Shown here one piece after another: positions 18,567 through 35,891 of a DNA stretch of 64,000 nucleotides. This DNA is from Candidatus Cloacimonadota bacterium. GTDB lineage: Bacteria > Cloacimonadota > Cloacimonadia > JGIOTU-2. Made by a program: the position numbers and the translations under genes. The stretch's first letter is position 1, and each line of letters begins with the position of its first letter. The notes beneath the pieces are model-generated. The model had not been told where the DNA came from. It did not search any database and saw only the letters and a list, made by a program, of their open reading frames with translations. Where the stretch lies: NCBI GenBank assembly GCA_016932035.1, contig JAFGDR010000036.1, positions 1 through 64,000 of the forward strand, given 5' to 3'.

Positions 18567-18582
18567 TACTTCCTTTCGAAAG

Positions 18583-18942
18583 CTATAAATATTTTTTGAG
18601 TTCCTTAATAAACAGTTCTGGATTTATTGGTTTTTCCATATAACCTGTGCATCCGGCTTGTAATGCCTTTTCACGGTCTCCTGCCATAGCATATGACGTC
18701 AGTGCAACTATTTTTAAGTCCTTTCCCTTTTCATCTTTCCTGATTCTTCTGGTGGCTTCAAGCCCATTGATATCAGGCAGTTGAATATCCATGATAATGA
18801 GATCTGGTTGTTCTTTTAGCGCAATTTCAACACCTTTAATTCCCTTACTTGTGCTGATCACCTCAAGATTATTTTGTTTAAGCATAAAGCGTATAAGATA
18901 TAGATTTGCTTCGTTATCTTCAATTACTAATACTGTCTTCAT
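18583..18942 (-). CDS. Single-domain response regulator
   Basis: The 119-residue receiver has acidic EDNE at its N-terminus, phosphoacceptor Asp in LIIMDIQLPDINGL, the ALTSYAM switch and Lys in YMEKPINPELF, resembling DivK-type regulators. Its ATG lies inside the end of the sensor kinase gene (23-base overlap), so it is most likely that kinase's partner. Confidence 0.92.
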   Translation of the reverse strand: MKTVLVIEDNEANLYLIRFMLKQNNLEVISTSKGIKGVEIALKEQPDLIIMDIQLPDINGLEATRRIRKDEKGKDLKIVALTSYAMAGDREKALQAGCTGYMEKPINPELFIKELKKYL

Positions 18943-21460
18943 TATTATTTTCCTTTATTATATGTGGAAATGTTATAATAAATGTTGTGCCTTCATCGGG
19001 AGTACTTTCCACATGAATTTTTCCGTTCAAAAGGTTCATGATCTTCTTTGTTAAATGAAGACCAAGACCGGTGCCTTCTCGCTTTTTTGTAAGTTCAGAA
19101 TCGATTTGCTGAAATGGTTCAAAAAGTTTTCCCATATCTTCGTTCTTGATACCAATCCCTGTATCTTTAACAATAATATCCACTTCTCTGTTATCCTTGA
19201 GTTCAGTAGTGACACTCACGGTTCCTTTATCCGTAAATTTGACCGCATTCCCAACAAGATTGAAAATTACCTGCTTGAATCTTCTCATATCTGTATAGAC
19301 TTCAATATTTTCACCTAAATGTCTTTTGAGTTCTAATCCTTTGTCATCTGCACTGTGTTTGAACGTATCCAGCACCTCTGTGATTATATCATTCATCATA
19401 AATGCTTCTTTATGAAGTTCTACTTTCCCTGCTTCAATTTTTGAGATATCGAGTATGTCATTTATGAGTTCCAATAAGTGATTTGCACTACTTTTCACGA
19501 TCTTCAGCTGGGTTTTTTGTTCATCTGATAGTTCACCGACCATTCCCATGAGAAGTATTCCTGTGAAACCAATTATTGAATTCAAAGGAGTTCTTAGTTC
19601 ATGACTCATGCTTGCAAGAAATATAGATTTCAGTCGATCAGCTTCCTGGAGGTCAATATTAGCTTTTTCTAGTTCTTTTGTTTTTCTCTCAAGATCCTCT
19701 GTTCTTGTTTTTACGATCTCTTCCAACTGTTCTCGATATAATTCCAGTTCATGTTCGATTTTCTTCCGTTCTGAAATATCTCGTACATTATGCACTGCAC
19801 CTACAATGTTATGTTGATTATCAAAAATTGGATCTACTGTTACCAGAACCCAGCGTTCTTTTGGCAGTTTTAATTCTTTAACTTCTCTTTTTTTAGATTT
19901 AGTCATCCGTACGAATGGGCAATCAGGAATTGGATTTTTTGAATTATGAATAGCTTGACAACAAAATGTGTTAACTAACTTATCCTTTGTGGTTTCAAAA
20001 ATCCTCAATGCAGATTCATTTACCTGCAAAATACGTTGATCTGTATCCAGAATCCAAATAGCATCATTTGATGAGTCAAAAGTTGTTTGCCATCTTTTGG
20101 CAGCTATTTCAAGATCTTCTTCAGCTTGCTTTCTTTGATTAATATCAAGAATGACTCCCTGCCATCTCTTTTTACCATTTGTGAGGTTTTTAACTCGTCC
20201 TATCGATCTGAACCATTTGACCTCATCATCAGAAATCTGTACTCGATACTCATAATTGAATGCTTGATCTGTATCCTCCACTTCTTTTGAAAGTTCTTGT
20301 ATTCGTTCTTTATCTTCAGGCAGAATTTGATCAAAGAAGCTGCTGTAATTCTCTTTGATCATACCAGCCACTTCTTTCCCAAGGAATTCTTCATTGCGGT
20401 TTGTTGTTATAACTGGTGTTCTGGTGCCATCTTCATCCTGATCATACATATAGACGAGTCCGGGAATGTTTTCAACAAAATTTCGATAATTCTCCCGGCT
20501 GAGTGCAAGTTCTCTCAGAGTTCGTTGGTGTTCGGCGATCTCCTGCTTCAGCACCTCATTTGTGCTCTGTAATGCTCGTGTTTGCTGCTTGATACGCCAC
20601 TTTGCCATCATATAGACAATGGTAAAAAATATCGCAATACCTAACAAACCTGCAAGAAGTGGTATGATCCATTCGGGAATACCTTTTTTGGGATAGAGAT
20701 TATACTTAGCAAGAATGGTGTAGTATTCTGAATCTGTGTCTTTTTGCATTTCGCGAAGCACTTCATCAATACGAGGAATAAAGTAAGCAGAGCGATCTGA
20801 ATCTTTTGGAAAAGCAAGACGTAGCTGTGTGGGATAAAATATTAAATTGGTCATCCTGACATTATATTGATCTTCAAATGCAGCGCCAAAATGTCGATTT
20901 GTAACACCGGCATCAACTTCTCCCTGCTGTATCAAACTGAACACATCATAGTAATCGGCAACTTCGACAAAGATGCAATTAACGCCATACAATTCCACTA
21001 GATTTACGATTCCTTCCTGACCATTCGTGAGAATACTGTTCTTCATAACAGCAATTTTTTTACCTTCAAGATCGAGTATTGTATTGATATCTTTACCAGT
21101 TCGTGAGTAAATACATCCCCAGCTCACAAGGACTGACTCAAGATTAAAATCATATTTCAACTTTCTTTCATCAGAAAGGGCAACATCGACCATAACATCG
21201 ATCTCCTCGTCCTCGAGACGTTTCAAACCTTCATTCCATGTTCCTTCGACAAAAATAATTTCCCATCCCTGCTTTTCAGCAATCACTGCCATAATTTCAG
21301 GAAAAATTCCAGAAGCTTGTCCATGTTCATTGATATAGACTTTAGGATAATTGTTGTAAACACCTACTTTAATACTATTGATGTTTTCTGCTGATAGAAG
21401 AAGTTGATTGAACAATAAGGCAACAGTAAGAAACAACAAGATATAAAATTCTTTTTTCAA
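18920..21460 (-). CDS. Membrane sensor histidine kinase with periplasmic solute-binding and PAS domains
   Basis: The protein has 846 residues. In order it contains a signal peptide (residues 1-24), an SBP_bac_3-type solute-binding domain (about 30-270; KVGVYNNYPKVYINEHGQ, DVMVDVALSDERK), one membrane helix (about 274-300), a coiled coil, two PAS/PAC domains (about 330-600), HisKA with His in FLASMSHELRTPLNSII, and HATPase (NAVKFTDKG, DTGIGIKNEDM, GTGLGLHLTKK). It should sense a small ligand in the periplasm and phosphorylate the adjacent receivers. The start is a TTG at 21460 with AGAGG upstream. It lies 111 bases downstream of the uracil-type permease on the same strand, so it may respond to related compounds; that link is speculative. 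Confidence 0.92.
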   Translation of the reverse strand: MKKEFYILLFLTVALLFNQLLLSAENINSIKVGVYNNYPKVYINEHGQASGIFPEIMAVIAEKQGWEIIFVEGTWNEGLKRLEDEEIDVMVDVALSDERKLKYDFNLESVLVSWGCIYSRTGKDINTILDLEGKKIAVMKNSILTNGQEGIVNLVELYGVNCIFVEVADYYDVFSLIQQGEVDAGVTNRHFGAAFEDQYNVRMTNLIFYPTQLRLAFPKDSDRSAYFIPRIDEVLREMQKDTDSEYYTILAKYNLYPKKGIPEWIIPLLAGLLGIAIFFTIVYMMAKWRIKQQTRALQSTNEVLKQEIAEHQRTLRELALSRENYRNFVENIPGLVYMYDQDEDGTRTPVITTNRNEEFLGKEVAGMIKENYSSFFDQILPEDKERIQELSKEVEDTDQAFNYEYRVQISDDEVKWFRSIGRVKNLTNGKKRWQGVILDINQRKQAEEDLEIAAKRWQTTFDSSNDAIWILDTDQRILQVNESALRIFETTKDKLVNTFCCQAIHNSKNPIPDCPFVRMTKSKKREVKELKLPKERWVLVTVDPIFDNQHNIVGAVHNVRDISERKKIEHELELYREQLEEIVKTRTEDLERKTKELEKANIDLQEADRLKSIFLASMSHELRTPLNSIIGFTGILLMGMVGELSDEQKTQLKIVKSSANHLLELINDILDISKIEAGKVELHKEAFMMNDIITEVLDTFKHSADDKGLELKRHLGENIEVYTDMRRFKQVIFNLVGNAVKFTDKGTVSVTTELKDNREVDIIVKDTGIGIKNEDMGKLFEPFQQIDSELTKKREGTGLGLHLTKKIMNLLNGKIHVESTPDEGTTFIITFPHIIKENNNEDSISN

Positions 21461-21571: not shown

Positions 21572-22828
21572 TTATTGGGGCAGCTTTTTGTTGATTTCCT
21601 TGAAATTTAAAATAAGATTAAGTATAACACCAACAATTGCAGCAAGTCCCAGACCTTCAAGTTCAAAATTTCCCAGCGTGAACTTTGCCCCACCAAGTCC
21701 AAGTACGAGCATCGCAGCTGTAATCATAAGAACCTTTGGATCGGTTAGGTCGACGTTATTATCGATCATATTTTTTATACCAATCGAAGAGATCATACCG
21801 AACAACAGAATCGAGATGCCACCAATGACTGGTCCGGGAATTGTTGAAATGATGGATGTAAATTTTGGTACCAACGATAACACGATCGCACACACCGCAG
21901 CTATCCGCATAGTAAGAGGATTATAATTTCCGGTAAGTGCAACTGCCCCGGTATTTTCACTATACGTAGTATTTGCAGGTCCGCCGATCATCGCAGAGAG
22001 AGACGTGGCAAGTCCATCCCCCATCAAGGTTCGATGAATACCCGGATCTTTGAAGAAGTCTTTACCTACAACATTACCAATAGCAAGGATATCCCCGAAA
22101 TGCTCAACGATTGTTACAATGGAGATGGGTACAATGATTGAAATCGCACGTGTGGTAAAAACCGGAAGGGAGAATTTCGGCAGCCCAAACCATGATGCTT
22201 GATTGATGGAAGTAAAATCAACGATCCCGATAATAATTGAAAGGACATATCCAGCCACGAGTGCGAAGAGGACGGGCAACATTGAGAGGAATTTCTTTCC
22301 TATACTTTTGAAGAATATCCTCACGAAGATCGCAACAGCAAAAGTGAACAGCGCAATACCCCAACAACCGTTTTTCCCGATCTGTTGTACAATCGCTGCT
22401 GAATTTGTTCCATTTGCATTACTGATCGCAACAGGTGCAAGGATCAGACCAATGAGAATGATCATCGGTCCAGTCACATGAGGGGGAAGGATTTTGTGCA
22501 GGGTGCGGACGTCGATGAACCTGAAAATGATCGCAACGACCACATACACAAGACCGGCGATCGCAATGCCGCCCAGCGCTTCCGGCAACGATCCGCCTTT
22601 TGCTGTTGAAACTGCGATGATACCCGGAATAAATGCAAATGAAGATCCAAGGAATACTGGTACTTTAAATTTTGTGATAATATGAAAAAGAACCGTGCCA
22701 ATGCCTGCACAGAAAAGTGTAACTCCTACATCCAGCCCGGTTAGAAGCGGTACCAATACGGTTGCTCCAAACATCACGAACATCTGCTGAAAACCGATGA
22801 TAAAGGTTTTACCGTTAAGATCTTTCAC
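21572..22828 (-). CDS. uraA: Uracil permease (NCS2 family, UraA/PyrP-like)
   Basis: This 418-residue inner-membrane protein has about 14 hydrophobic segments. It matches UraA rather than xanthine or urate permeases: VEHFGDILAIGNVVGKD with Glu242, and NTTYSENTGAVALTG with Glu291. These two glutamates correspond to the uracil-contacting Glu241 and Glu290 of E. coli UraA. GGAKFTLGNFELEG near the C-terminus fits as well. It should be a proton-coupled importer of uracil or a close analogue. It is the last gene of the ten-gene catabolic run, 61 bases after the amidase. Its specificity is the main clue to the pathway's substrate; it is judged by motifs, not by alignment. Confidence 0.93.
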   Translation of the reverse strand: MKDLNGKTFIIGFQQMFVMFGATVLVPLLTGLDVGVTLFCAGIGTVLFHIITKFKVPVFLGSSFAFIPGIIAVSTAKGGSLPEALGGIAIAGLVYVVVAIIFRFIDVRTLHKILPPHVTGPMIILIGLILAPVAISNANGTNSAAIVQQIGKNGCWGIALFTFAVAIFVRIFFKSIGKKFLSMLPVLFALVAGYVLSIIIGIVDFTSINQASWFGLPKFSLPVFTTRAISIIVPISIVTIVEHFGDILAIGNVVGKDFFKDPGIHRTLMGDGLATSLSAMIGGPANTTYSENTGAVALTGNYNPLTMRIAAVCAIVLSLVPKFTSIISTIPGPVIGGISILLFGMISSIGIKNMIDNNVDLTDPKVLMITAAMLVLGLGGAKFTLGNFELEGLGLAAIVGVILNLILNFKEINKKLPQ

Positions 22829-22889
22829 GATGACCTCTTTTGATATATTTTATCTAAATTCAATGACTATTTTCTTCTGATATGTAATG

Positions 22890-24182
22890 CTAAATCATTG
22901 AAAGACTTTTTGAAAAAATCAATAATTCCTCATCTTCCTCGAATTCACCTGCGATCTGCAAACCATGTGGTAAACTATTGATCTCACCAATAGGAATCGA
23001 TAATGTCGGCATACCTGCATACGTCCAAGGTAAGCTCATTGCAGGATCACCGGTCGAAGTGAGACCTTTTGGTGGAAGAGAAGTTGCCGACGGTGAAATC
23101 CAAATATCAATACCTTCTCTCTTCATGATTGTCGAAAGGTGATCTCTCAGAATAATTATGCCAGCCTTAGCTTTTTTATAACTATCTTCAGTTACTGAAT
23201 TACCATTTTCAATCAGTTTTTTTGAGTGTAAGCTATATAGTTCTTTGTATTGAGAATACCAATCTTTATGAACACGAGCAAATTCATAGGAGATCATATC
23301 CTTATGCATCGAATTGATCTCATCAATGTTTTCAAAAACAGGTACTTCGATCATTGAAAAACCTGAATTTCTGATCTGGTCTATCTTTTTGTTGAAGCCA
23401 TTGAGAATCGTTTCAGAAGCTTGTTTTATATATCGTCCTTTGGGAATTCCTATAACAGGCTTTTGATTTGCTAAATATGTTCCGGTTTTCCAATCGTTGC
23501 AAAGAACTGAAGAAACGGTATGTATGCTGTCAAAATCCTGGATGAAAAAGCCGATTTGATCTGCTGTAAGTGAAAATGGGATCAAGCCATCGTTTGGAAT
23601 TCTACCTGTGCTTGGCTTAAAACCAAACACACCGCAATACGCTGCCGGTCGAGTAATAGACCCGATCGTCTGCGTACCAAGTGCACAAGGACAGAATCCT
23701 GCGGCAACTGCTGCTGCAGAACCGCTGCTCGATCCGCCCGGTGTATGGTTCGGATTGTGCGGATTTCTTGTTGGTCCTGGTTGAAAATAAGCGAATTCTG
23801 TTGTGACCGTATTCCCCAAAATGATTGCACCTGCATCTTTCAATCTTGTCACTGACGCAGCTTCTTTTCCTTCAAACTCGCTTGCAGGAAGCCTCGAACC
23901 TGCTTTCATTTCAAAGCCATCGACGCGAAATATATCTTTAACTCCTATAGGTATTCCAAAGAGAACGGCTCGATCTTTTGGATCCGGAAATCGCTCATAT
24001 AGTTCCTTTATATCTTTATTAAGGCGTTTTCGTCGTCCTTTTTCGGGTAAAAAAGCATGAATTGCTGAATCCCATGTATCCAGTTTGTCACACAAATCCT
24101 CAATAAGTTTTTCAGGAGTTATACTCCCTTGGTTTATCTGATTGATAATTGTTGATAAAGAACATTCTGAAAGATATTTCAA
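22890..24182 (-). CDS. Amidase-signature family hydrolase
   Basis: This 430-residue cytoplasmic protein has the Ser-cisSer-Lys machinery of the amidase-signature family: Lys82 in GIPIGVKDIF, the GGSSSGSAAAVAAG loop at 149-162, and the nucleophile Ser175 in GTQTIGSITRPAAY. Relatives include GatA, allophanate hydrolase and the ureidomalonase of actinobacterial pyrimidine oxidation. It directly abuts the CoA-transferase gene (no spacer) within the catabolic operon. That points to hydrolysis of a small amide or ureido acid such as malonamate or ureidomalonate. The exact substrate is inference. It is too short for the allophanate hydrolase C-domain, and no GatB or GatC gene is nearby, which argues against GatA. 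Confidence 0.88.
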   Translation of the reverse strand: MKYLSECSLSTIINQINQGSITPEKLIEDLCDKLDTWDSAIHAFLPEKGRRKRLNKDIKELYERFPDPKDRAVLFGIPIGVKDIFRVDGFEMKAGSRLPASEFEGKEAASVTRLKDAGAIILGNTVTTEFAYFQPGPTRNPHNPNHTPGGSSSGSAAAVAAGFCPCALGTQTIGSITRPAAYCGVFGFKPSTGRIPNDGLIPFSLTADQIGFFIQDFDSIHTVSSVLCNDWKTGTYLANQKPVIGIPKGRYIKQASETILNGFNKKIDQIRNSGFSMIEVPVFENIDEINSMHKDMISYEFARVHKDWYSQYKELYSLHSKKLIENGNSVTEDSYKKAKAGIIILRDHLSTIMKREGIDIWISPSATSLPPKGLTSTGDPAMSLPWTYAGMPTLSIPIGEINSLPHGLQIAGEFEEDEELLIFSKSLSMI

Positions 24183-25373
24183 TTAAATCACACCATTTTC
24201 TTCTAGTTGAGCCAGTTTTTGATCATTATAACCAAGATATTTTTCCAGCACTATCTTTGTATGTTCGCCTAATTTCGGTGCAGGATTCCGTTTTTTCTCG
24301 TTCGGGAGCGATGTCATCTTTATAGGATTCCCGGCAACTTTGATTGAACCGGCTTTCTCGTCATCGACATTGACGATCATATTGCGTGCATGAATCTGGG
24401 GATCATTCATGATTTTTTCAATATTATTGATCGGACCAACCGGAATGCCTTTACTCTCCAGAAGTTCGATCCATTCTGACGCTTTCTTTGTGAGAAAGAG
24501 CTCTTCCAGCATTGGGATCAGTGTATCCATTTTATTATTTCGATCAACATTTTTAATGTAATTTGGATCAGATGCCCAATCCTCTTTTCCAACAGCATAA
24601 CAGAATTTTTGCCAGAGATTATCATTTCCGATCGGAAGCACAAAATACTCATCCTTTGCCATAAACGCCTGGAATGGACTGACCGTGGGATGTTTGTTTC
24701 CAATCGGTGTTGGTGATGTTCCATCAACCTGGAAACGGGCAAGGGCATTTTCAAGAATTGCAACCTGGCAATCAAGCATTGCAACATCGATGAGCTGTCC
24801 TTTTCCGGTTTTATCCCTTTGATAGAGTGCTGCACCGATTCCAACTGCAGTAAAGAGACTCGCCGTTATATCTCCGATTGACATACCTACTCGTGTTGGA
24901 GGAGTATTGGGCCATCCTGTAATGCTGATCATGCCGCCGCGAGCTTGTGCAAGGAGATCATAGGATGGTTTTTTTGAGTCAGGTCCGGTTTGTCCGAAGC
25001 CTGAAGTGGAGGCATAGATCAAACGAGGATTTATTGTATGCAAAACATCATAACCCAAACCAAGTTTTTCCATTGTTCCGGGACGAAAATTCTCGACAAG
25101 CACATCAAACTCTGCCACCAAGTCTTTTACAATTTGTTTTGCTTCATCAGATTTCAGATTTAAAGTGATACTTTGCTTTGCCCTGTTCAAGCTTACAAAA
25201 TAGAGACTTTGCTCATTCTTAAAAGGACCAAAAGTCCTTGAATCATCACCGCTCTTTGGTCTTTCAACTTTTATAACTTCAGCGCCAAGATCTGATAATA
25301 CCATGGTGCAAAAGGGACCTGCCAGCACACGTGTCAGATCGAGAACTTTTATTCCTTCAAAGGGTTTGGACAT
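24183..25373 (-). CDS. Type III (CaiB/BaiF) CoA transferase
   Basis: The 396-residue protein matches family III CoA transferases: FEGIKVLDLTRVLAGPFCTM at the N-terminus, VIKVERPKSGDDSR, VENFRPGTMEKLGLGYD, and the conserved catalytic Asp in VGMSIGDITASLF. Such enzymes move CoA between carboxylic acids (formyl/oxalate, carnitine and others). Placed directly between the molybdenum hydroxylase and the amidase with no spacer on either side, it probably activates the dicarboxylic product of the pathway. Malonate or oxalate would fit; this is inference. No matching decarboxylase gene is in the window. Confidence 0.93.
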   Translation of the reverse strand: MSKPFEGIKVLDLTRVLAGPFCTMVLSDLGAEVIKVERPKSGDDSRTFGPFKNEQSLYFVSLNRAKQSITLNLKSDEAKQIVKDLVAEFDVLVENFRPGTMEKLGLGYDVLHTINPRLIYASTSGFGQTGPDSKKPSYDLLAQARGGMISITGWPNTPPTRVGMSIGDITASLFTAVGIGAALYQRDKTGKGQLIDVAMLDCQVAILENALARFQVDGTSPTPIGNKHPTVSPFQAFMAKDEYFVLPIGNDNLWQKFCYAVGKEDWASDPNYIKNVDRNNKMDTLIPMLEELFLTKKASEWIELLESKGIPVGPINNIEKIMNDPQIHARNMIVNVDDEKAGSIKVAGNPIKMTSLPNEKKRNPAPKLGEHTKIVLEKYLGYNDQKLAQLEENGVI

Positions 25374-27719
25374 CTATTTCTCCTTGTTTTTCAAATATGT
25401 TAAAGCCACTTTCTCCTGCGTGATTGGCATAGTTTTTACCCTGATCTCGAGTGCATCCTGCAATGCATTCGCTATCATTGGAGCTGCAGGTATCATCGTA
25501 TGTTCACCAACTCCACGTGCACCAAAAGGACCATCCGGCTGCGGAACTTCTATTATGATAGGCACGATCTCGTCGGGAATATCCTTTGCCGTTGGAATCT
25601 TATAATCAGTGAAGTTTGGATTGAGCAATTTCCCTTTGTCATCATACCGAATATCTTCATAAAGTACAGTAGAAAGCCCCTGCAGCAAACCTCCGGTGAT
25701 CTGACCTTTCACCAAATCTGGATTGATCGCTTTGCCGGCATCGATGGCTTCGACAGCTTTTTTAACATGCATTTTGCCCGTATCTTTATCAACTTCAAGT
25801 ATAATCGCCGCAGCGCCGACGGTGTAATGTACATTAGGATGACCACCCTGACTTGTTTCCGGATCACTATATGCAGAGGTGAACTCAGGCATAAAAATAC
25901 CTTTCCCTAATATTGGACCACCTCTAAAAGTCCCGTCCTTTGCCTGAATGCCGTTTATCACAAAATCCTTGAGGGGGAGTTCGAAATCCGGTTTTGTTTT
26001 ACATTTTACTTTTTCATCTTCCAGATATAATTGCTCTTTGGGAAGCACACATGCTCTTTCGATCACCTCAAATATCTGATCTCGTGCATTGATCGCTGCA
26101 TTCTTGACAGCATTTCCGCATGACCAGGTGACGTGTGAAGCAACGGTCTGCCATTCGTAGGGATTTCGATCAGTATCAGGATTTTCTGTTCGAATTTTCG
26201 AAACAGGAACAGTAAGAATTTCAGCAGCTATCTGAGCCATGACTGTTAGAAAACCCTGTCCCATATCCATGCCGGATACAAGAATATTCAGACTTCCGTC
26301 TTCGCTGAATTTTACAAATGCTGCTGACGATGCATTTGGCGGCATTGCAGGTGCTTTCCAGATGAGCGAGAATCCCTTACCAATCGCCTTATGTGGATCA
26401 TCAGACTTGACCTTCTTACCCCACTCGATTTCTTTTTCTACTGCTTCGATCGCTTTATGTAATCCGCTTGGATTCATGGGAACACCATATGCAAGGATAT
26501 CACCTTCTTTGATTGCATTCTTTTTACGAATTGCAACCGGATCGAGTTTGAGATATGCAGCAATTCTATCTATATGTGATTCCAAACCGAACATGAATTC
26601 CGAGTAACCAAATCCTCTATACGCTCCACATGGCGGGAGGTTTGTGTATAGACAGACAGAATCAATGAAGATAATCGGGAATCGATATGGTCCAGTCGCA
26701 GAGAGCCCTATTGCATTTACCACATTTGCACCATATTCGGCAGATGCTCCTGCATCCCAGTATAATCTATGATCGATAGCAGTAAATGTGCCATCCTTTT
26801 TCGCACCGATCTTGAGTTTGGCAATAACGCCAAGTCGTTGTGAGGTATTGTAGAATTCTCTTTCCCGAGACCAGATAACCTGCACAGGATTTCCTCTCAG
26901 TTTTGTTGCCATCGCAGCAGCGAGAATTTCCATGGAAACACCAGCTTTCCCACCGAAACCTCCACCGATCGGAGGTGCAATAACACGTATGTCTTTGTGG
27001 GTGAAACCGAGTGGTGCAAGCGCTTCGGCAAAGAGATTTCTTTGTGTATGTGGTGACTGCGACGATGCCCATACAGTCAATCTGCCGGACAAATCACATA
27101 AACCGACCGCTGCGTGCGTTTCGATCGGACAATGGGAATATCGCGGAACACTGTATGTATCTTCGAGTATGTAATCTGCTTCTGCAAATCCCTTTTTGAT
27201 ATCACCTCGTCTCGTTTTACGCCAGTGGGCAATATTCGTTTTTGCTTGAGGAAAAAACCATGGAACATGTATATAGTCACCAAGATCAAGATGTATAAGT
27301 GTAGCATCCTTTTTTAATGCTTCCATTTGATCGAGTAATGCTGGAAGGGCTTCGTACTCGACCTTTACAAGTTTAGCTGCGCGTTCAGCAATTCGTTTAT
27401 CACGAGAGACCACTGCAGCGATCTGCTCTCCGACAAATCTTACACGATCCATAGCAAAGATATATCTATCTTTCATATAAAGCCCGAATTTGTAGGGAAA
27501 ATCTTTGCCCGTGAATACTGCAATCACTCCCGGAAACCTTTGAGCTTCAGAGATATCAATATGCTTGATAAGTGCATGAGCTTCAGTACTTTCGACGAGA
27601 GCCGTATAAAGAAGGTTTGAACCATATTCCAGGTCGTCTGTAAAGTGTGTCGCACCACTAACTTTTTCTTTACCATCGATTCTAACAATTGGTTTACCAA
27701 CGAATTTCAGATCACTCAT
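25374..27719 (-). CDS. Molybdenum hydroxylase large (Mo-cofactor) subunit, xanthine dehydrogenase family
   Basis: This 781-residue catalytic subunit hydroxylates an N-heterocycle or aldehyde using water. Cofactor motifs are GGGFGGKAGVSME, GAYRGFGYSEFMFGLE, MDMGQGFLTVMAQIAAE and the C-terminal FGARGVGEHT with the catalytic Glu. AYRGFG excludes CO dehydrogenase, which has AYRCSFR. The frame is open 12 codons further upstream, but the ATG at 27719 has an ideal AAGGAGG in the end of the 2Fe-2S gene, which it overlaps by 8 bases. With the FAD and 2Fe-2S subunits it forms a complete heterotrimer. Uracil to barbiturate is the proposed reaction, judged only by the neighbouring permease and hydrolases; xanthine, nicotinate or hydroxypyrimidines remain possible. 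Confidence 0.93.
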   Translation of the reverse strand: MSDLKFVGKPIVRIDGKEKVSGATHFTDDLEYGSNLLYTALVESTEAHALIKHIDISEAQRFPGVIAVFTGKDFPYKFGLYMKDRYIFAMDRVRFVGEQIAAVVSRDKRIAERAAKLVKVEYEALPALLDQMEALKKDATLIHLDLGDYIHVPWFFPQAKTNIAHWRKTRRGDIKKGFAEADYILEDTYSVPRYSHCPIETHAAVGLCDLSGRLTVWASSQSPHTQRNLFAEALAPLGFTHKDIRVIAPPIGGGFGGKAGVSMEILAAAMATKLRGNPVQVIWSREREFYNTSQRLGVIAKLKIGAKKDGTFTAIDHRLYWDAGASAEYGANVVNAIGLSATGPYRFPIIFIDSVCLYTNLPPCGAYRGFGYSEFMFGLESHIDRIAAYLKLDPVAIRKKNAIKEGDILAYGVPMNPSGLHKAIEAVEKEIEWGKKVKSDDPHKAIGKGFSLIWKAPAMPPNASSAAFVKFSEDGSLNILVSGMDMGQGFLTVMAQIAAEILTVPVSKIRTENPDTDRNPYEWQTVASHVTWSCGNAVKNAAINARDQIFEVIERACVLPKEQLYLEDEKVKCKTKPDFELPLKDFVINGIQAKDGTFRGGPILGKGIFMPEFTSAYSDPETSQGGHPNVHYTVGAAAIILEVDKDTGKMHVKKAVEAIDAGKAINPDLVKGQITGGLLQGLSTVLYEDIRYDDKGKLLNPNFTDYKIPTAKDIPDEIVPIIIEVPQPDGPFGARGVGEHTMIPAAPMIANALQDALEIRVKTMPITQEKVALTYLKNKEK

Positions 27720-28179
27720 TATTACCCTCCTTTGTTGCATTTTCGACAGCTTCAAGGATCGGTAAATAACCAGTACATCTGCATAGATTTCCTGAAAGTG
27801 CTTCTTTTATCTCTTCTCGTGTTGGATGTGGATTATTATTGAGAAGTTCTGTTGCAGAAATGATTACACCCGGTGCACAGAATCCGCATTGAAAGGCATT
27901 ATTATCTATCATTGATTCCTGCACTTTGCTCAAACCATCTTTCGATATACCTTCGACCGTAACAATCTCCTGTCCATCGACTTCCACAGCAAGAATCAAG
28001 CAGCTCCGAACACTTTTTCCGTTAAGAAGTACACTGCATGAACCGCAGTCACCCCTATCGCATCCACACTTCGGACTCTTAACTCCGAGTTTTTCTCGGA
28101 GTACATCGAGAAGGATTTCATGCGGTTCGATATCGACTAGACGTTTCTCATTATTAAGAGTAATTTTGATCTTATGCAT
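27712..28179 (-). CDS. Molybdenum hydroxylase 2Fe-2S subunit
   Basis: The 155-residue small subunit holds a plant-type 2Fe-2S cluster (GCDRGDCGSC with Cys40, 45 and 48, plus Cys60) and a second helical cluster (FQCGFCAPG and NLCRCTGY). This is the standard layout for XdhC/CoxS-type proteins. The frame extends four codons further, but ATG 28179 with GGAGG at 28185-28190 is the better start; it overlaps the FAD-subunit stop by 8 bases. It relays electrons from the Mo site to FAD. Confidence 0.95.
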   Translation of the reverse strand: MHKIKITLNNEKRLVDIEPHEILLDVLREKLGVKSPKCGCDRGDCGSCSVLLNGKSVRSCLILAVEVDGQEIVTVEGISKDGLSKVQESMIDNNAFQCGFCAPGVIISATELLNNNPHPTREEIKEALSGNLCRCTGYLPILEAVENATKEGNNE

Positions 28180-29044
28180 TTTCACCTCCATGAAGCCTGG
28201 AAACAGCTTTCATCAATCCCCGTTCTAACATTATACCCATCATGTGTTCACGATATTCTTTCGATGCCCGTACATCACTGATCGGAAATATATTATTAAG
28301 CATTATCTGCTTTGCTTCTTGGATTACATTCTGATCTATTACTTTTCCATTAAGAAATTCTTCAATATGATATAAGCGTTTTGGGATCGGACCTACAGCG
28401 CAACAAGCTACATGATACTGATCATCATCAAATGCAAGGATACAAATCCCTGCTTGTGCAAGATCCTCACCCGAGTACCGTCCAAGTCTTTCATAGCATC
28501 CAGCATGCTTTCTTTCGGGAAAATGTAATGCAATTCCTGTGACAATTTCATCTGACTTCAATGTCGTCTTTTTGGGACCTGCAAACCATTCTGTAATCGG
28601 TACAATCCTATCTTTCGAAGCACTTCTGACAATGACATCGGCATCATATACGAGCAAGATCGGTGCAGAATCAGCTGACGGGACAGCAGAGCAGATATTA
28701 CCTATCATTGTTGCCCTGTTGCGGATTCCCATCGATGCAACGGTTAAGGACATTTCCTTGATCAAGGGAAAATATCTTTGAATAATCTCTGATTCAATCA
28801 ATTCTGAGAACGTAATACATGCACCGATGAAAAGGATATTCTCATCAAAAGTGATCTCGTGAAATGCTTCGATACCTTTGATATCGATCACAACATCCGG
28901 TGCAATGATATTATCCTTCATTTGGACAACAAGATCGGTGCCCCCAGCGAGGATGCGAGTTTTATCACGATATTCTGCGCGCAACTGCAAGACCTCTTCA
29001 ATGTTACGTGGGTTATAATATTCGAAATCATGAAGTATAGACAT
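28172..29044 (-). CDS. Molybdenum hydroxylase FAD-binding subunit
   Basis: The 290-residue medium subunit has the FAD-binding loop ILAGGTDLVVQMK, ASMGIRNRATMIGNICSAVPSADS (in two parts) and the CO-dehydrogenase flavoprotein C-terminal domain. The second FAD motif reads TMIGN where TIGGN is usual, a small deviation that leaves the fold intact. Electrons would pass from here to NAD+ or ferredoxin; no partner is encoded nearby. It starts 146 bases after the cyclase-family gene, the only sizeable gap in the operon. Confidence 0.93.
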   Translation of the reverse strand: MSILHDFEYYNPRNIEEVLQLRAEYRDKTRILAGGTDLVVQMKDNIIAPDVVIDIKGIEAFHEITFDENILFIGACITFSELIESEIIQRYFPLIKEMSLTVASMGIRNRATMIGNICSAVPSADSAPILLVYDADVIVRSASKDRIVPITEWFAGPKKTTLKSDEIVTGIALHFPERKHAGCYERLGRYSGEDLAQAGICILAFDDDQYHVACCAVGPIPKRLYHIEEFLNGKVIDQNVIQEAKQIMLNNIFPISDVRASKEYREHMMGIMLERGLMKAVSRLHGGENA

Positions 29045-29054
29045 ATAATCCTTT

Positions 29055-29075
29055 CGCTTTAAATAAACTAAAGCG
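29055..29075. promoter_or_regulatory. Stem-loop in the gap between the cyclase and hydroxylase genes
   Basis: CGCTTTA and TAAAGCG form a 7-bp stem with a 7-base loop just upstream of the ribosome binding site of the FAD-subunit gene. The 146-base gap also holds ATTCTCATTGTAATAAGAAT, an imperfect inverted repeat (about 29122-29145). Either could be an internal control point or mRNA processing site of the operon. Confidence 0.3.
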
Positions 29076-29190
29076 CAATAATTTTTAAATCCTCCCGATT
29101 ATCGGAACTAATGACAATAACATTCTCATTGTAATAAGAATAAATCTTTAGTATTTTGTCTTTAGTTTTTTTTTATTGAATATCTTTTTT

Positions 29191-30009
29191 TTACTTCGGG
29201 GGTTCAAGAGCTACTATACGACACATTGATGATTCCAGTTCAAGACCGCGAAGCGGGAACAATCCGATCCAAACACGTTTATTATTCACCTTGTTGATCT
29301 CACCGCCAAGGTTTTCCGCATGAACTAATCCTTTGGGGAACAATTTCAGATGCATGACCTGGTAGTACTCCTCGAGTGGGAACATCTCGTCCCATGATTG
29401 ATTGTATTTTGCTTTGAGTTTATTGTCAGCTTCAATAAATTTCTTTGGATGCCAGTCGCGGATAATCGTATTCATGGGATGGTCAGCACTTCCGCAGTCC
29501 ACACCAATCCATTTGAATTTCATTTCCAAAGCCCATGTATGGAAATCCGGATCAGGTCCCGGATGCTTCACAAAATAACGCACTTCGTCAGACTCTGGCT
29601 GATCCCAGCTATAACGGTGATATCCTGTATTGATGATAAGAATATCCCCTTTTTTGATCTCAGCTTTGCTTTTCAGCATATCAGGTGAATAGAGTGAGTA
29701 ATCCTCAACCTCGTCCGAGATATCGACCACAACACCATGCCCGATCCAGTCTTCGATCGGCACTTGTCCGATGGTCTTTCCGCTTCCGAAGAAGTGTATC
29801 TGTCCATCGATATGCGTACCCACATGATTACTTGTTTTGATGATCTGTCCGTTAGCTCCCTGTCCCATGTGCGCACCTGCTAGACGTTTGAAGTATTGAA
29901 CCTGCAAGGGCATGTAACTCGGCCATGGAGGTGTGTGGACGCTGAGGGGTTGCGTCAGGTCATACACCCGCACCTTATCCATAAATTCGAGAAATTCGTT
30001 GTTATTCAT
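29191..30009 (-). CDS. Cyclase-family metal-dependent hydrolase (kynurenine formamidase/isatin hydrolase fold)
   Basis: This 272-residue protein carries the family's metal signature NHVGTHIDGQIHFF (His62, His66, Asp68, His72) and a later HAENLGGE with conserved Glu. Known members hydrolyse N-formylkynurenine or open the cyclic amide of isatin with Mn or Zn. Here it sits between the DUF1116 gene (11 bases away) and the molybdenum hydroxylase genes. A ring-opening role on a hydroxylated cyclic imide, for example barbiturate to ureidomalonate, fits the gene order. Known barbiturases belong to a different family, so this would be an analogous enzyme. The function is inference, the family assignment firm. 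No signal peptide is seen. Confidence 0.9.
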   Translation of the reverse strand: MNNNEFLEFMDKVRVYDLTQPLSVHTPPWPSYMPLQVQYFKRLAGAHMGQGANGQIIKTSNHVGTHIDGQIHFFGSGKTIGQVPIEDWIGHGVVVDISDEVEDYSLYSPDMLKSKAEIKKGDILIINTGYHRYSWDQPESDEVRYFVKHPGPDPDFHTWALEMKFKWIGVDCGSADHPMNTIIRDWHPKKFIEADNKLKAKYNQSWDEMFPLEEYYQVMHLKLFPKGLVHAENLGGEINKVNNKRVWIGLFPLRGLELESSMCRIVALEPPK

Positions 30010-30020
30010 AGGATCTCCTA

Positions 30021-31439
30021 CTATTTATTCTTTTCTTTTTTATCCAATGATGTTATAAAGCCGGCAAGGGCTTTTTTAAATGGTTCATACGGAGCACTCA
30101 ACACTCCTGCGCCAACCTGTCCGACTCCCGGTTTTTTGTGTGCAACACCTGTATCAATAAAGGGTAATATTCCTTTTTCATTAACCTTAATCACATCAAT
30201 TCCCGTGGGTGTTCCACGGAAGTTCAGTGCAGGTATCTGATACATATTATTTTCTCCGGCTGTGATCTCATACATTTCCTGGGAATAATTAAGCGCATCT
30301 TTTGCAGCACCACCGATGAACTGAACAATTGCCGGTGACGCTGCGATTGCAAAGCCGCCGAGTCCGTTTGTCTCTGTTATGGAACTATCCCCAATATCGC
30401 GATTTGCATCATTTTTTGTATATCCCGGGAAGAATAATGCATCAGGGATTGGTGCCTGACCGACAAACCATTGATTTTTCGTACCGGAAAGTTGCAAGCC
30501 AAAATCCGTTCCATTACGCGTCATTGCCACAACAACACTACTCCCTTTGATATTTCGAGCTGCGTCGAGGGTGACTTTGCATGCAGGCATGGATAGATTC
30601 AGGAAGAAATGGTCATTTCCGTTTATGAATTCCAGCACCTTGATCGCGATATCTTTATCATTTGTTTTGATCACTACAGGTGCAATCGTTCGATAAAAGA
30701 GTGAGGTGGCAGCCCTGTTTCTGTTATGGACTTCATCACCCATATGAAGTGCCTGAGCAATCAGGTTTTTCAGATCGATCTTTCCGAGTTCTCTAACTGC
30801 CTTTTTCAGTGCCGGATACAGTACTGCTTCCATCCATTTGAGCTTTTTAACAACGTCATCGCTGAAAGCACCATAACGAAGCACTTTCCCCAAACCTTCA
30901 TTCATGGTGCAGTATGCATGATTGCCAAAGGTTTCGTTTTTCAGGACAAAAACCGGCATAGAAGCTGAAACGATACCAGCCATTGGCCCCACCGTTTTGT
31001 GTTCATGACAGGGCGCATACTCGATCTCTCCCGACGATGCCAGTTTCTCTGCTTCTTTGGGATTTTTTGCCATACCTTCGTACATCAGTGCACCGATTAT
31101 CGCACCACGCATAGGACCGCACATTCTCTCCCATGTGATCGATGGTCCAGCATGAAGAATGAGATTTTTCTTCATACCAGGGATCACATCGATTGCACGA
31201 TCTAGATCGATGAGTACCGGTGCACCTTTCAAAATTTTCTCAAGGCACTTTTTGTTCTGCTTCTCGATATATGATTCGTTATTCGAAAGAACGTTTAGTA
31301 TTTTTTTATCCAATTCTGCTGGTGGTTTCCAGTCAACCTGAACAGCATGAGCACCAGCTTCTTCAACATTTTCTTTGAACGAACTTAGCCCTATATTAAT
31401 TACATTCAAATCTTTATTAAAAGGATCACTTTTTGCCAT
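30021..31439 (-). CDS. DUF1116 protein (YlbE/AllG-like)
   Basis: The 472-residue protein matches DUF1116, represented by E. coli YlbE of the allantoin/oxamate locus: HAVQVDWKPPAE, NLILHAGPSITWERMCGPMRGA, GEIEYAPCHEHKTVGPMAGI and FGNHAYCTMNEGLGKVLR. As I recall, YlbE with FdrA and YlbF has been reported to act as an oxamate carbamoyltransferase that splits oxalurate into oxamate and carbamoyl phosphate. It overlaps fdrA by 14 bases, so the two are coupled. No membrane segments or cofactor motifs are visible. In this operon the substrate may be a different ureido acid. Confidence 0.9.
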   Translation of the reverse strand: MAKSDPFNKDLNVINIGLSSFKENVEEAGAHAVQVDWKPPAELDKKILNVLSNNESYIEKQNKKCLEKILKGAPVLIDLDRAIDVIPGMKKNLILHAGPSITWERMCGPMRGAIIGALMYEGMAKNPKEAEKLASSGEIEYAPCHEHKTVGPMAGIVSASMPVFVLKNETFGNHAYCTMNEGLGKVLRYGAFSDDVVKKLKWMEAVLYPALKKAVRELGKIDLKNLIAQALHMGDEVHNRNRAATSLFYRTIAPVVIKTNDKDIAIKVLEFINGNDHFFLNLSMPACKVTLDAARNIKGSSVVVAMTRNGTDFGLQLSGTKNQWFVGQAPIPDALFFPGYTKNDANRDIGDSSITETNGLGGFAIAASPAIVQFIGGAAKDALNYSQEMYEITAGENNMYQIPALNFRGTPTGIDVIKVNEKGILPFIDTGVAHKKPGVGQVGAGVLSAPYEPFKKALAGFITSLDKKEKNK

Positions 31440-33027
31440 ATGATTGTTCCTTTGCTCTTTTATATGATATATTTTGGATGATCAAACCTGCATATTCAGC
31501 GGCAGCGGCATTTGATTCAAAAACAAATACACCAGCTTTTTTCAGTTCATTTATCACCATCTTTTTATCTTGAGGGTCTTCTTTTGTACCAGTAACTGAA
31601 CAGATGAAGATAATCTCCTTACCGGTTGACTGAGATTGTGCTCCTTTTATGATAGGAACGAGTTCTTCTGCAGGATACATATTCGATCCAAATCCGAGTA
31701 CCACATCAAACAGTATAACTGCAACATTTTTGTCCTTTACTTCCTGGAGGATTCTTCTGTTCCGCAATGAATAATCGATCATCGGGTGCGGTCTGCCGAG
31801 CGTAAATTCATCTGCACCTATATCGATAAGTGTATTTTTCTTACTCTTCCATGGATCTTTCAAGACAAATTCTTTGTCTAAAGTTATGTTGTTATACACA
31901 TCTGCGACCATATCTTGAAGAATGATTTGTGCTTCTTCACAGAGTGTGCCGCCGCAGAAAAGTCCGCGAATATATTTTTGCTTATCTGAGAAGTTTTGAA
32001 TGATATTAAATATTCTTTTTTCATCCACCAAATCAGCTTTTCGTTTCCCGAGATAGTCCTCAACAGAATGCCAATTCTCATCTTTGGAAATCTTTTCTGC
32101 GATTAGTGCGGCTTGTTCGAGCGTATGTGCCGGGATGATCTTTGTATCTGTCAAAATCTTTTTATCACTTCCAAGAAAAACTGCGACGATCGGCTTTTTT
32201 ATATCTTTTGATTTTTCAACTATTTTATCGACCACTACCTCTGCAGGTGGTTTGGAAGCAAGCACGATTACCTGAGTATTTTCGTCACGATCCAATGCAT
32301 CCAAGGCTTGCAAGAACATGATACCGCCGACCTCTTTTTTCACATCCCGTCCACCTGTGCCGATAGCCTGGGATATGCCGACTCCCCTGTCCGAAAGGAT
32401 CGAGCTGATCTCCTGCAGACCGGTTCCTGAAGCAGCAACAATACCAACATTTCCTCTTTTTACAACATTTGCAAAAGCAAGAGGAATGCCGTTTATGATA
32501 GCAGTACCGCAATCCGGTCCCATCACAAAAAGACCTTTCTCATGTGCATACGTTTTCAAAGCGATCTCATCTTCGAGCGGGACATTATCCGAAAAGATCA
32601 TCACATGCAATCCCTTTTTCAATGCCTTCATTGCTTCCCGCTCTGCATATTTACCCGCAATCGAGATAAGTACAAGATTCGCATCCGGCATACTTTTCAG
32701 GGCGGTATCCAGACTCTTGGGCAAAAAATCCTCGGTATCACTCATCTCTTTCCTGATCGAATCCAAAATGCCATCAACGTGCTGCAATGCTTCTTTTGCA
32801 TCCTCGTCTGTTTTTGCTTTGACACATATAAGAAGATCAGAACTCTCTGCTTTCCTGAATTCTGGAATGAATAATCCCGATGCATCGAGGATCGATCTGT
32901 TCTCTTCTGTGTTCATCACAACAGCAGCATCGAGTACACCATCCAAGCCGTTCAATTTCTGAGCAACGATCATCAATGTGACCGAATCAAAATATTCCCC
33001 TTTGTTAATTTTTCCTTTTATAACCAC
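31426..33027 (-). CDS. fdrA: FdrA (acyl-CoA synthetase-like carbamoyltransferase component)
   Basis: This 533-residue protein resembles succinyl-CoA synthetase subunits: a CoA-binding-like N-terminal half with VMGPDCGTAIINGIPLAFAN, GIVAASGTGLQEISSILSD and GISQAIGTGGRDV, and a ligase-like C-terminal half (FCGGTLCEEAQ, DIGADEFTLGRPHPMID, LFDVVLGFGSN). FdrA always travels with DUF1116 and DUF2877. The trio is proposed to transfer a carbamoyl group between a ureido acid and phosphate. It overlaps the DUF2877 gene by 10 bases and DUF1116 by 14. A carbamate kinase usually completes the set to make ATP; none is in this window. Confidence 0.93.
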   Translation of the reverse strand: MVIKGKINKGEYFDSVTLMIVAQKLNGLDGVLDAAVVMNTEENRSILDASGLFIPEFRKAESSDLLICVKAKTDEDAKEALQHVDGILDSIRKEMSDTEDFLPKSLDTALKSMPDANLVLISIAGKYAEREAMKALKKGLHVMIFSDNVPLEDEIALKTYAHEKGLFVMGPDCGTAIINGIPLAFANVVKRGNVGIVAASGTGLQEISSILSDRGVGISQAIGTGGRDVKKEVGGIMFLQALDALDRDENTQVIVLASKPPAEVVVDKIVEKSKDIKKPIVAVFLGSDKKILTDTKIIPAHTLEQAALIAEKISKDENWHSVEDYLGKRKADLVDEKRIFNIIQNFSDKQKYIRGLFCGGTLCEEAQIILQDMVADVYNNITLDKEFVLKDPWKSKKNTLIDIGADEFTLGRPHPMIDYSLRNRRILQEVKDKNVAVILFDVVLGFGSNMYPAEELVPIIKGAQSQSTGKEIIFICSVTGTKEDPQDKKMVINELKKAGVFVFESNAAAAEYAGLIIQNISYKRAKEQSYGKK

Positions 33028-33893
33028 AGCTCACCTGCTTTCTTCCATGCAAATATAAATCCCACAAGCGTATCCGCTCCAGAGGTTGCTCCCACATCCA
33101 ATAAAGATTCAACATGCGACATTAACTGCTCGTGGTTTTTCTGAAAAAGTGACATAATAAAATTCTTGAATCGCTCATTGAACAATCCCTTGTATGCACT
33201 GGTGAGAAAGGAATTTGAGATAAAATTCTCACCCTGGGCATATGTGTATATCAGTTTCCTTACTTCGGAAAGATCATTACCTTTGATCTCATGTTTAACA
33301 TACAATCCCGAAAGAAGTCCGGCAAGGAAGTCATCTCCGCTCGGGGTAAGACCGAATCCGCATCCTTTGATCCAAGCAATCCCCTTTTTTAGATTTTCCA
33401 AAGTCCCTTTCTGCATGTATTCGATCCCTTGCTTTATTCGTTGTAAAAATGCTCTCTCGAAGGTTGTTGCGAAAAACGTTTCTCTTTTTTCATTGAAAAG
33501 AAAACTTAAGCTTTTTTCCGGGCTTTGTTCCGCAAGAAAGGATTCTACAAAGTTCAAATTTTCATAAAGTTTATCTACTTTAGCATTCTGGAATGTGATC
33601 TTTGAATGGTACTTCAAATCTTCATGCAACTGAAATGGGATCTTGTTTATGATAATAACATTTTGAAGCACAATAAGAGAGTGTATTTCACGTAGATCAA
33701 AGTAATGCAGAATGATATTGAATGGTCCTTTTCCAATGTCCTGATTTACGATTGAAAGAAGTATATTTCCATTCTGAAGATTGATCGTTCTGCTAAACCT
33801 CGAATGAATGTGATAAATACCCTCTGTAATGGTATCTCCATAGCTGATCAGTTTTGGGCAATAGTAATTTGGATTTCCACGTAATGAACTCAT
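33018..33893 (-). CDS. DUF2877 protein (YlbF/AllH-like)
   Basis: The 291-residue protein matches DUF2877, represented by E. coli YlbF. The diagnostic segment is GCGFGLTPSGDDFLAGLLSG near the middle, with a C-terminal SGADTLVGFIFAW helix. It is the first gene of the ten-gene minus-strand run and overlaps fdrA by 10 bases. With FdrA and DUF1116 it should form the carbamoyltransferase complex; its individual role is not known. Confidence 0.88.
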   Translation of the reverse strand: MSSLRGNPNYYCPKLISYGDTITEGIYHIHSRFSRTINLQNGNILLSIVNQDIGKGPFNIILHYFDLREIHSLIVLQNVIIINKIPFQLHEDLKYHSKITFQNAKVDKLYENLNFVESFLAEQSPEKSLSFLFNEKRETFFATTFERAFLQRIKQGIEYMQKGTLENLKKGIAWIKGCGFGLTPSGDDFLAGLLSGLYVKHEIKGNDLSEVRKLIYTYAQGENFISNSFLTSAYKGLFNERFKNFIMSLFQKNHEQLMSHVESLLDVGATSGADTLVGFIFAWKKAGELWL

Positions 33894-34176: not shown

Positions 34177-35622
34177 CTAATTCTGTTTCTTTTCAGTCCC
34201 GTATTTTTCCAATTTCTGTTTTAACGTTTTGACCTTATCGCGTAATTCTTTTATCCTGTACTCCCTACCCTGGAATAGTTTATTGAATTCAAACAATTCT
34301 TTGTTACGTTTCTCAAGTTCTTTGGTCCTATTCTCAACCATCTCCTCAAGATGCTCTTTATATTTTTCGAGTTCTTTATGTGCTTCAACGTTTTCCGTCA
34401 TATCAATAAATGAGCCAAGAAATCTTGTCACATTCCCATCCCTATCTCTTTCAAAAGGAACATCATATGATATCAACCATTTCCACGTTTTATTCTTCGT
34501 TTTAAAACGATAACTGACCATTATGACTTTATCTGTTGTCGAATGAACAACTTCAGCCATATGATCCATTACTTGCTGTCTATCCTCAGGATGAAAAAGT
34601 TCAATAAACGACGCTCCCATGCTGTTTATATCTTCAAGAGTCCATCCGGTAATTGCTGTATATTCTGTATTTATATACTCATACATATGCTTCTTTACAT
34701 TGTATATATTCAAACCAGTAACGATTGAGTTAAGTATTTTATCCCGTTCTCTATTTTTCTCCTGTAATATCAAATCCTTTTTCCGTAGCTGGAGTTGTAT
34801 CCTCGATAAGATCACTCCTACAAGAAGTGTAATTAAAAGAAACAGATTACGGGAAAATAACGAATTTAGAGGAACATGCACGAACATCATATCGAGAAAG
34901 CTGCTCTGACCTTTATAGAAAACAAAATAGTCCATGATCCCCTGAATAAACCAGAATGCACAACCGATCAGCACTGCCGCACTTATAATGTATGTAGTCT
35001 CTCGATAATCTGTTTTTTCTTCCGGATTAAAAAATTTTCGTATTGGAGCTATATGCATAAATACATCACAAATAAGAAGGAGTACATATGCAGTAATCGT
35101 GTGTTTGATAGCTACGAAAGCCACCCACGATATCGAGACAAAATTATTTGTTAACTGAGGTGCCCAGGGAGGAGGATTAAATGATACCAGCAATCTGAAT
35201 AGTGTTAAAAAACCAAGTTCAATGACAATCCTGAATGGTATTTCAACGATATACATACTCGCGTACCATCGGTGTTCATGAGTTTTTCTGTAATCCGCCC
35301 AATAGCCATGCCATACTATCCAAAGGGTGAATACTGGTACAGCATAGAGAAATCCCCAGCCATCAGTAAACCAAAGCCACCACATTGTCTGGCACCCGCC
35401 TGCAAGTGCTGAGAAAAGGCCAAATTTCCAGCCCCACATGAGTGTTATAAAAAGCGGAAACAGAAGCCCAAAGAGAATGCTTACTTTAAAATCTGCGAAC
35501 TGCATGAAATTAACTGCATGAAAATTTGCCCAGAATCCGATTAAACCAAAAATAACTGAAATGAGTATTTTTTTTATTTGAAAGCTACAAACACAACCAG
35601 CAGCTTTGTTTTTTTCATTCAT
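34177..35622 (-). CDS. Membrane PAS-domain protein without kinase domain
   Basis: The protein has about 481 residues. Its first 290 contain seven or eight hydrophobic segments rich in Trp (for example MWWLWFTDGWGFLYAV), then a short coiled coil, one PAS/PAC domain (about 300-420; EYINTEYTAITGWTLEDI) and a C-terminal coiled coil ending in NKLFQGREYRIKELRDKV. No histidine kinase, GGDEF or other output domain follows, and the next 140 bases hold none. The ending is one seen in other stand-alone PAS proteins, so it need not be truncated. It may modulate a separate kinase. ATG 35622 is preferred over an upstream TTG. It lies next to, but is not overlapping with, the catabolic operon. Confidence 0.75.
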   Translation of the reverse strand: MNEKNKAAGCVCSFQIKKILISVIFGLIGFWANFHAVNFMQFADFKVSILFGLLFPLFITLMWGWKFGLFSALAGGCQTMWWLWFTDGWGFLYAVPVFTLWIVWHGYWADYRKTHEHRWYASMYIVEIPFRIVIELGFLTLFRLLVSFNPPPWAPQLTNNFVSISWVAFVAIKHTITAYVLLLICDVFMHIAPIRKFFNPEEKTDYRETTYIISAAVLIGCAFWFIQGIMDYFVFYKGQSSFLDMMFVHVPLNSLFSRNLFLLITLLVGVILSRIQLQLRKKDLILQEKNRERDKILNSIVTGLNIYNVKKHMYEYINTEYTAITGWTLEDINSMGASFIELFHPEDRQQVMDHMAEVVHSTTDKVIMVSYRFKTKNKTWKWLISYDVPFERDRDGNVTRFLGSFIDMTENVEAHKELEKYKEHLEEMVENRTKELEKRNKELFEFNKLFQGREYRIKELRDKVKTLKQKLEKYGTEKKQN

Positions 35623-35891
35623 TAAGAAGTATTTCCTTTGCAAATCAAATATTCAAGAATTAGTATCATCATGTATACACCCAAATTTCTCAGAACGAAA
35701 TATATAGTGTAAGCAATATAAAAAAGCACACTGTTTTTATACCAATGATGTCAAGAATTATATAAAATATTGATTGTATTTAAGTTAATTTCTTGAAACT
35801 TATCACCTTATTTTATACTCTGTATTCATTGACATCATGAATCATGGTTTATCAAATGTCAAAAACAAAGCTCATTCTGGAGGTTTTTCAT

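Follow-up and report, generated by a model that had tools for sequence, protein, structure and literature searches.

Oxidative breakdown of pyrimidines has been described in actinobacteria, where uracil/thymine dehydrogenase, barbiturase and ureidomalonase lead through barbiturate and ureidomalonate to malonate; hydrolysis of barbiturate yields the acylurea 3-oxo-3-ureidopropionate (PMC3758960). In the anaerobic allantoin/oxalurate pathway of E. coli, encoded by allFGHK (oxamic transcarbamylase and carbamate kinase), AllFGH catalyses the reversible conversion of oxalurate into oxamate and carbamoyl phosphate, and its assay was run in reverse (PMC11326118). Here we describe a ten-gene operon at positions 21572-33893 of a stretch of 64,000 nucleotides (the window; contig JAFGDR010000036.1, positions 1 to 64,000) from a Candidatus Cloacimonadota genome. 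On the evidence of its genes, the operon is predicted, with somewhat better than even confidence, to serve an oxidative, carbamoyl phosphate-yielding catabolism of uracil or a close pyrimidine (e.g., thymine) in anaerobes.

The proposed route resembles the actinobacterial pathway in its barbiturate, ureidomalonate and malonate intermediates or products, but it differs in its ring opener, which is a PF04199 cyclase instead of a member of the AtzD/Bar family, in the acylurea being phosphorolysed by AllFGH to carbamoyl phosphate rather than hydrolysed to urea, and in its occurrence in mostly anaerobic uncultured phyla. None of the ten operon proteins matched PF09663, the family of AtzD/Bar-type barbiturases, and such an enzyme was found in 0 of 125 genomes of the class, in a search where no control genome scored either. 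With the allFGHK system of E. coli the operon shares contiguous homologues of AllF, AllG and AllH (40, 43 and 33% identical) and the proposed release of carbamoyl phosphate, whereas its order is H-F-G, it has no linked allK and no allantoin genes, and a molybdenum (Mo) hydroxylase and a cyclase are linked to it. The Rut, URC and reductive (PydA/hydantoinase/ureidopropionase) uracil pathways have in common with it the presumed substrate and a RutG-like permease, but 0 of the 10 proteins belong to their enzyme families and, except for a dihydropyrimidinase in one Bdellovibrionales locus (L090), no homologues of RutA, RutB or dihydropyrimidinase were found beside operons of the window type. An earlier note on this DNA had likewise set the route apart from the Rut, reductive and actinobacterial ones. 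Each part resembles a known enzyme family; the combination itself was not found described, and the open-access literature searched contains no description of the route. We give an even chance to the view that this is a further pyrimidine catabolic route, oxygen-independent and yielding adenosine triphosphate (ATP), in which the Mo hydroxylase would form barbiturate, the PF04199 enzyme would be a second, unrelated barbiturase and AllFGH would act as a ureidomalonate phosphorylase (malonamate transcarbamylase).

Operon layout and proposed reactions

The interval is filled by ten open reading frames, all on the minus strand, and their position, strand and families are as the earlier note had read them, Pfam and NCBIfam searches agreeing with its assignments. 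In transcription order the genes encode AllH, AllF, AllG, the cyclase, the flavin adenine dinucleotide (FAD), 2Fe-2S and Mo subunits of the hydroxylase, a CaiB coenzyme A (CoA)-transferase, an amidase and a permease:

33018..33893, minus strand: AllH-like (DUF2877) subunit, encoded first in the operon (PF11392, 86 bits; 33% identical to E. coli AllH, C-terminal part)
31426..33027, minus strand: AllF/FdrA subunit with a CoA-ligase-like fold (NF004760, 512 bits, above cut-off; 40% identical to E. coli AllF; PDB 3dmy, FdrA)
30021..31439, minus strand: AllG (DUF1116) subunit (PF06545, 325 bits; 43% identical to E. coli AllG; PDB 3clq)
29191..30009, minus strand: cyclase-family metal hydrolase, proposed imide-ring opener converting barbiturate to 3-oxo-3-ureidopropionate (PF04199, 118 bits)
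28172..29044, minus strand: FAD subunit of the Mo hydroxylase (PF00941, FAD_binding_5, and PF03450)
27712..28191, minus strand: 2x[2Fe-2S] subunit of the Mo hydroxylase (PF01799, Fer2_2, and PF00111)
25374..27719, minus strand: molybdenum-cofactor subunit, proposed uracil C6 hydroxylase (PF02738, PF20256 and PF01315; MoCoBD_1/2 and Ald_Xan_dh_C)
24183..25373, minus strand: class III (CaiB) CoA-transferase, proposed malonate CoA-transferase (PF02515, CoA_transf_3, 439 bits)
22890..24182, minus strand: amidase-signature hydrolase, proposed malonamate amidase (PF01425)
21572..22828, minus strand: NCS2 permease of the UraA/RutG type (Xan_ur_permease; TIGR00801, above cut-off)

The ten genes form a tight operon, with junction gaps of -10, -14, 11, 146, -20, -44, 0, 0 and 61 bp in transcription order; the only sizeable one (146 bp) lies between the cyclase and FAD genes and the next largest (61 bp) between those of the amidase and the permease. 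The cluster is not due to chance, because its order and co-occurrence are kept in many genomes. The Mo subunit probably starts at the ATG at 27719 (MSDLKFVGK...) and not at the listed TTG at 27755.

In the proposed sequence, the UraA-type symporter would bring the base into the cell, where the Mo/FAD/2Fe-2S hydroxylase would place a water-derived oxygen on C6 to give barbiturate, and the cyclase-family metal hydrolase would open the imide ring to form 3-oxo-3-ureidopropionate (ureidomalonate). By analogy with the oxalurate reaction of E. coli, AllFGH would then cleave ureidomalonate phosphorolytically into malonamate and carbamoyl phosphate, from which a carbamate kinase encoded elsewhere in the genome could generate ATP. 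Lastly, the malonamidase-like amidase would release malonate and ammonia, and the CaiB transferase would form malonyl-CoA. Every substrate in this sequence is one that we infer from the genes, their order and conservation, the residue signatures and the neighbours, all of which are observed, and the logic of the core stands on firmer ground than the last steps.

Conservation of the core and enzyme signatures

Three markers (AllG, the cyclase and the Mo subunit, with a strict threshold) were followed through a sample of 125 genomes of the class, where they occur in 34, 33 and 35 genomes, respectively, and all three are present in 31 of the 36 genomes that carry any of them (Fisher p ~1e-26). 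At least some of the five exceptions (G032, G068, G095, G096 and G110) are effects of contig edges or completeness, e.g., the operon of G095 leaves its contig (L051) and G110 is 54% complete. Presence of the core is patchy between genera, as expected for a unit gained or lost whole. Furthermore, a genome-wide scan for the cyclase gave 50 loci, many of them from metagenome-assembled genomes (MAGs; phyla are named as in the records), and the order (AllH-)AllF-AllG-cyclase-FAD-FeS-MoL is kept, within contig limits, in MAGs of Cloacimonadota, Bacteroidota, KSB1, Ignavibacteria, Zixibacteria and Bdellovibrionales, and partially in Elusimicrobia and Atribacteria. Mantel tests on five core proteins gave r values of 0.66-0.90 in 10/10 pairings, with 0/2000 permutations as high. 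The core (allFG, cyclase and Mo hydroxylase) is passed on as one unit; viral contigs gave no relative. A lack of joint conservation in relatives, one of two outcomes that the earlier note had named as refuting its reading, was not seen as far as sequences can show, the core genes being kept together across phyla. CaiB and the amidase are not in all relatives and, in the bacterial loci looked at, occur solely in Cloacimonadota and Bacteroidota.

In Riflebacteria, Methylomirabilis, Hydrogenedentota and some others, AllF-AllG-cyclase occurs without an adjoining Mo hydroxylase of the window type. The tested genomes with this second arrangement encode a Mo subunit 38-43% identical to that of the window, mostly elsewhere in the genome, but next to the cluster in Hydrogenedentota L098 and close by in L104, and those of Riflebacteria and Methylomirabilis have the GGKAG and GEH motifs in common with the window type. 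In L098 the cyclase is followed by a CN-hydrolase amidase, and in Riflebacteria L109 a further UraA-type permease is found close to allFG-cyclase; both observations favour the proposed route.

What stays constant is thus AllF, AllG and the cyclase, usually accompanied by a Mo hydroxylase. A ring opener that forms an acylurea, joined to an acylurea phosphorolase, would be expected to have this appearance. 3-oxo-3-ureidopropionate is the one-carbon homologue of oxalurate with an identical terminal acylurea; hydantoin or dihydrouracil would give alkylureas, not acylureas, after ring opening. All three AllFGH subunits are encoded together, in contiguous genes. The cyclase carries the H-x-G-T-H-x-D-x3-H metal motif and the fold of PF04199, the motif reading HVGTHIDGxIHF in nearly all homologues, and it is the most conserved of the five core proteins (median pairwise identity 80%, compared with 47% for AllF). 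Its AlphaFold model (predicted local distance difference test score 78, with poor loops) has as structural matches isatin hydrolase and kynurenine formamidase, PF04199 enzymes that share the metal motif and fold, but the identity in the structure match is <20% and the cyclases of the operons make up a separate group of very high conservation.

Mo hydroxylases oxidize a ring CH adjoining a nitrogen, and C6 of uracil would fit this chemistry. The operon enzyme belongs to the xanthine oxidase family, with three subunits present and the equivalents of the catalytic Glu1261 and of Arg880 retained, while the position that we take, by bovine numbering, to be that of the xanthine-type Glu802 is Ala, within GGGFGGKAG, in the window and in all operon Mo subunits shown. 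The permease is 38% identical to both UraA and RutG, scores 252 bits against UraA structures from E. coli and 55 against UapA, a uric acid-xanthine permease, and retains UraA Glu241, the glutamate of transmembrane helix 10 (Glu290) and NTTYxEN, position 290 being Gln in XanQ and UacT. Its best family is the curated uracil permease NF007995, although its 354.9 bits are under the 477-bit cut-off. Judging from these residues, neither protein appears purine-specific, a property that the earlier note had named as capable of overturning its reading.

The amidase has malonamidase E2 of Bradyrhizobium japonicum as its best solved relative, a distant one (170 bits, residues 70-421), and keeps the equivalents of Lys62, Ser131, Ser155 and Arg158, i.e., the Ser-cisSer-Lys triad and Arg158, which presumably binds a carboxylate. 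Most enzymes of the amidase-signature family probably have Ser-x-Arg instead of Ser-x-x-Arg, and the latter is found in 33/33 operon amidase sequences. The step to malonate suggested by the earlier note thus gains support that had not been expected, as far as residues can tell.

Substrate alternatives and points against a uracil route

Several observations weigh against a route from uracil to malonyl-CoA. The CaiB protein is as close to YfdE, which acts on oxalate, as to anything, its nearest solved relatives being YfdE and succinate-hydroxymethylglutarate CoA-transferase. In the sister Cloacimonadota L043, L045, L062 and L063, a thiolase and an unnamed protein of 231 residues take the site of CaiB and the amidase, a swap for which malonate accounts poorly, malonyl-CoA having no obvious need for a thiolase. 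UraA His245 is Asp in the window and in all operon permeases shown, as in XanQ. No carbamate kinase was found by Pfam search within the operon, and the copy above cut-off, on contig C27 of the source genome, lies in a purine-type cluster, although it may also serve the operon. Moreover, no AllG was found in the Caldisericota MAG of L105, a permease of the PbuX type is also present in a Halostagnicola cluster with a related cyclase, and the identity of haloarchaeal Mo subunits to bacterial ones is only ~28%, for which reason the haloarchaeal neighbours are the weaker evidence.

Another pyrimidine may follow the same chemistry, with thymine giving methylmalonyl-CoA by way of 5-methylbarbiturate, or some other pyrimidine with a 5-substituent taking the place of uracil. 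The historical oxidative pyrimidine enzyme is described as active on both uracil and thymine. The same two bases are transported by RutG-type permeases (PMC6308229), and the thiolase module of the relatives hints at an acyl-CoA product more elaborate than malonyl-CoA. Against this, genes beside the cyclase in relatives lead to uracil: in L105 (6311-7876) a uridine phosphorylase (TIGR01718, 305 bits, cut-off 280) lies 9 bp downstream of the cyclase (76%), and the Halostagnicola cluster (L170) encodes a cytosine deaminase and CodB, each over a family cut-off. Replacement of uracil in this way is considered unlikely.

Rather improbable, too, is an oxalurate route, in which the cyclase would convert a cyclic ureide such as parabanate, derived from a purine or hydantoin, into oxalurate, AllFGH would give oxamate and carbamoyl phosphate, the amidase oxalate and the YfdE-like CaiB oxalyl-CoA. 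AllFGH is oxamic transcarbamylase in E. coli, and parabanic acid induces the enzyme in a Streptococcus according to an older paper, as far as it is represented in the references of PMC11326118. CoA:oxalate CoA-transferase is the top family of CaiB, below cut-off, and the genome has a separate purine-type cluster with YgfK. Nevertheless, oxalyl-CoA decarboxylase is absent from the genome (18 bits vs a cut-off of 739, which 1/14 control genomes exceeded), and oxalate as the end product was rejected on this ground. The malonamidase-like amidase with its conserved Arg158 and the pyrimidine-type permease also disagree with oxalurate, and parabanate would need Mo hydroxylation at an sp3 carbon of hydantoin, which established chemistry makes unlikely.

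The least probable alternative is use of a purine or another N-heterocycle, with a xanthine/hypoxanthine or hydroxypyridine Mo hydroxylase and a downstream ureide for the cyclase and AllFGH: the subunits are generically similar to XdhABC and 4-hydroxybenzoyl-CoA reductase and the PbuX-type permease of the haloarchaeal cluster is a xanthine permease, but xanthine was rejected, as the Ala at the Glu802 position and the UraA-like permease disagree with it, a separate XanQ-like permease and the YgfK cluster are already encoded elsewhere in the genome, and nicotinate or hydroxypyridine, also rejected, would leave the acylurea-specific AllFGH unexplained.

The pyrimidine pathway put forward in the earlier note is the best of the readings tested and is supported in part, in its conserved core and non-purine signatures, while uracil as substrate, ureidomalonate for AllFGH and the malonate/malonyl-CoA end stay conjectural; for the last two steps, the enzymes are present, but the thiolase module of sister species excludes them from the conserved core. 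If the pathway is real, it would explain how many uncultured sediment and digester phyla obtain ATP from RNA-derived pyrimidines without oxygen, its core being common to many uncultured anaerobic phyla, and it would provide candidate genes for the oxidation of uracil, add a second barbiturase not homologous to the first, and widen the substrate range of AllFGH, a transcarbamylase identified only recently.

Neighbouring genes and further observations

The source genome (2.44 Mb, 95% complete, 66 contigs) has Cloacimonadota MAGs, including Candidatus Celaenobacter, as its closest named relatives. A search for malonyl-CoA decarboxylase (PF05292) gave no match, and no control genome scored in it. 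Its C27 purine-type cluster (locus L032, 3263-17484) resembles the yge/ygf region of E. coli and comprises the carbamate kinase, YgfK (1315 bits), a second Mo hydroxylase, two carbamoyltransferases similar to ornithine transcarbamylase/YgeW, and an XdhC-family protein below equivalog cut-offs. The carbamate kinase and the XdhC-family gene are thus present in the genome, where the earlier note had proposed to look for a carbamate kinase and Mo-cofactor maturation genes.

Just downstream of the operon (17400-21460) are genes for two response regulators and for a sensor histidine kinase whose N-terminus is solute-binding-like, and just upstream (34177-35643) is that of a membrane PAS protein; these flanking regulators could sense the operon substrate. 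A histidine kinase near the Riflebacteria cyclase was considered as an operon member and rejected, being a minus-strand gene that resembles the one flanking the window operon. Within the operon, AllG residues 9-51 (gene at 30021-31439) align with residues 509-551 at the C-terminus of E. coli AllF, so that the domain border seems to have shifted and this N-terminal segment to have moved between subunits.

The thiolase of the relatives is of the PF22691 type, and its usual partners are an unnamed protein of ~230-290 amino acids and/or a DUF35-like protein with an oligonucleotide/oligosaccharide-binding (OB) fold. Ignavibacteria (L084/L087) and Methylomirabilis (L091) have the thiolase, the unnamed protein and an OB-fold protein, and in Halorussus L179 thiolase, OB-fold protein and CaiB occur together. 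In the Bdellovibrionales locus, the dihydropyrimidinase (537 bits, cut-off 393) overlaps allH by 4 bp. Like the uridine phosphorylase of L105 and the cytosine deaminase and CodB of L170, it favours a pyrimidine as substrate. An Elusimicrobia MAG (L150:4561-7113) encodes a PreT-PreA-like fused protein (~850 amino acids, 27-31%) 4 kb from its Mo subunit gene.

On haloarchaeal plasmids, cyclases (43-47%) often have as neighbours a Mo hydroxylase, permeases of the NCS2/SLC23 family and a dihydropyrimidinase-like enzyme; CaiB joins them in some cases and thiolase/OB-fold genes in one. The recurrent cluster (L170-L179) adds a CoxG-like protein, a CocE/NonD hydrolase and MoeA, and looks like an uncharacterized nucleobase or ureide pathway.

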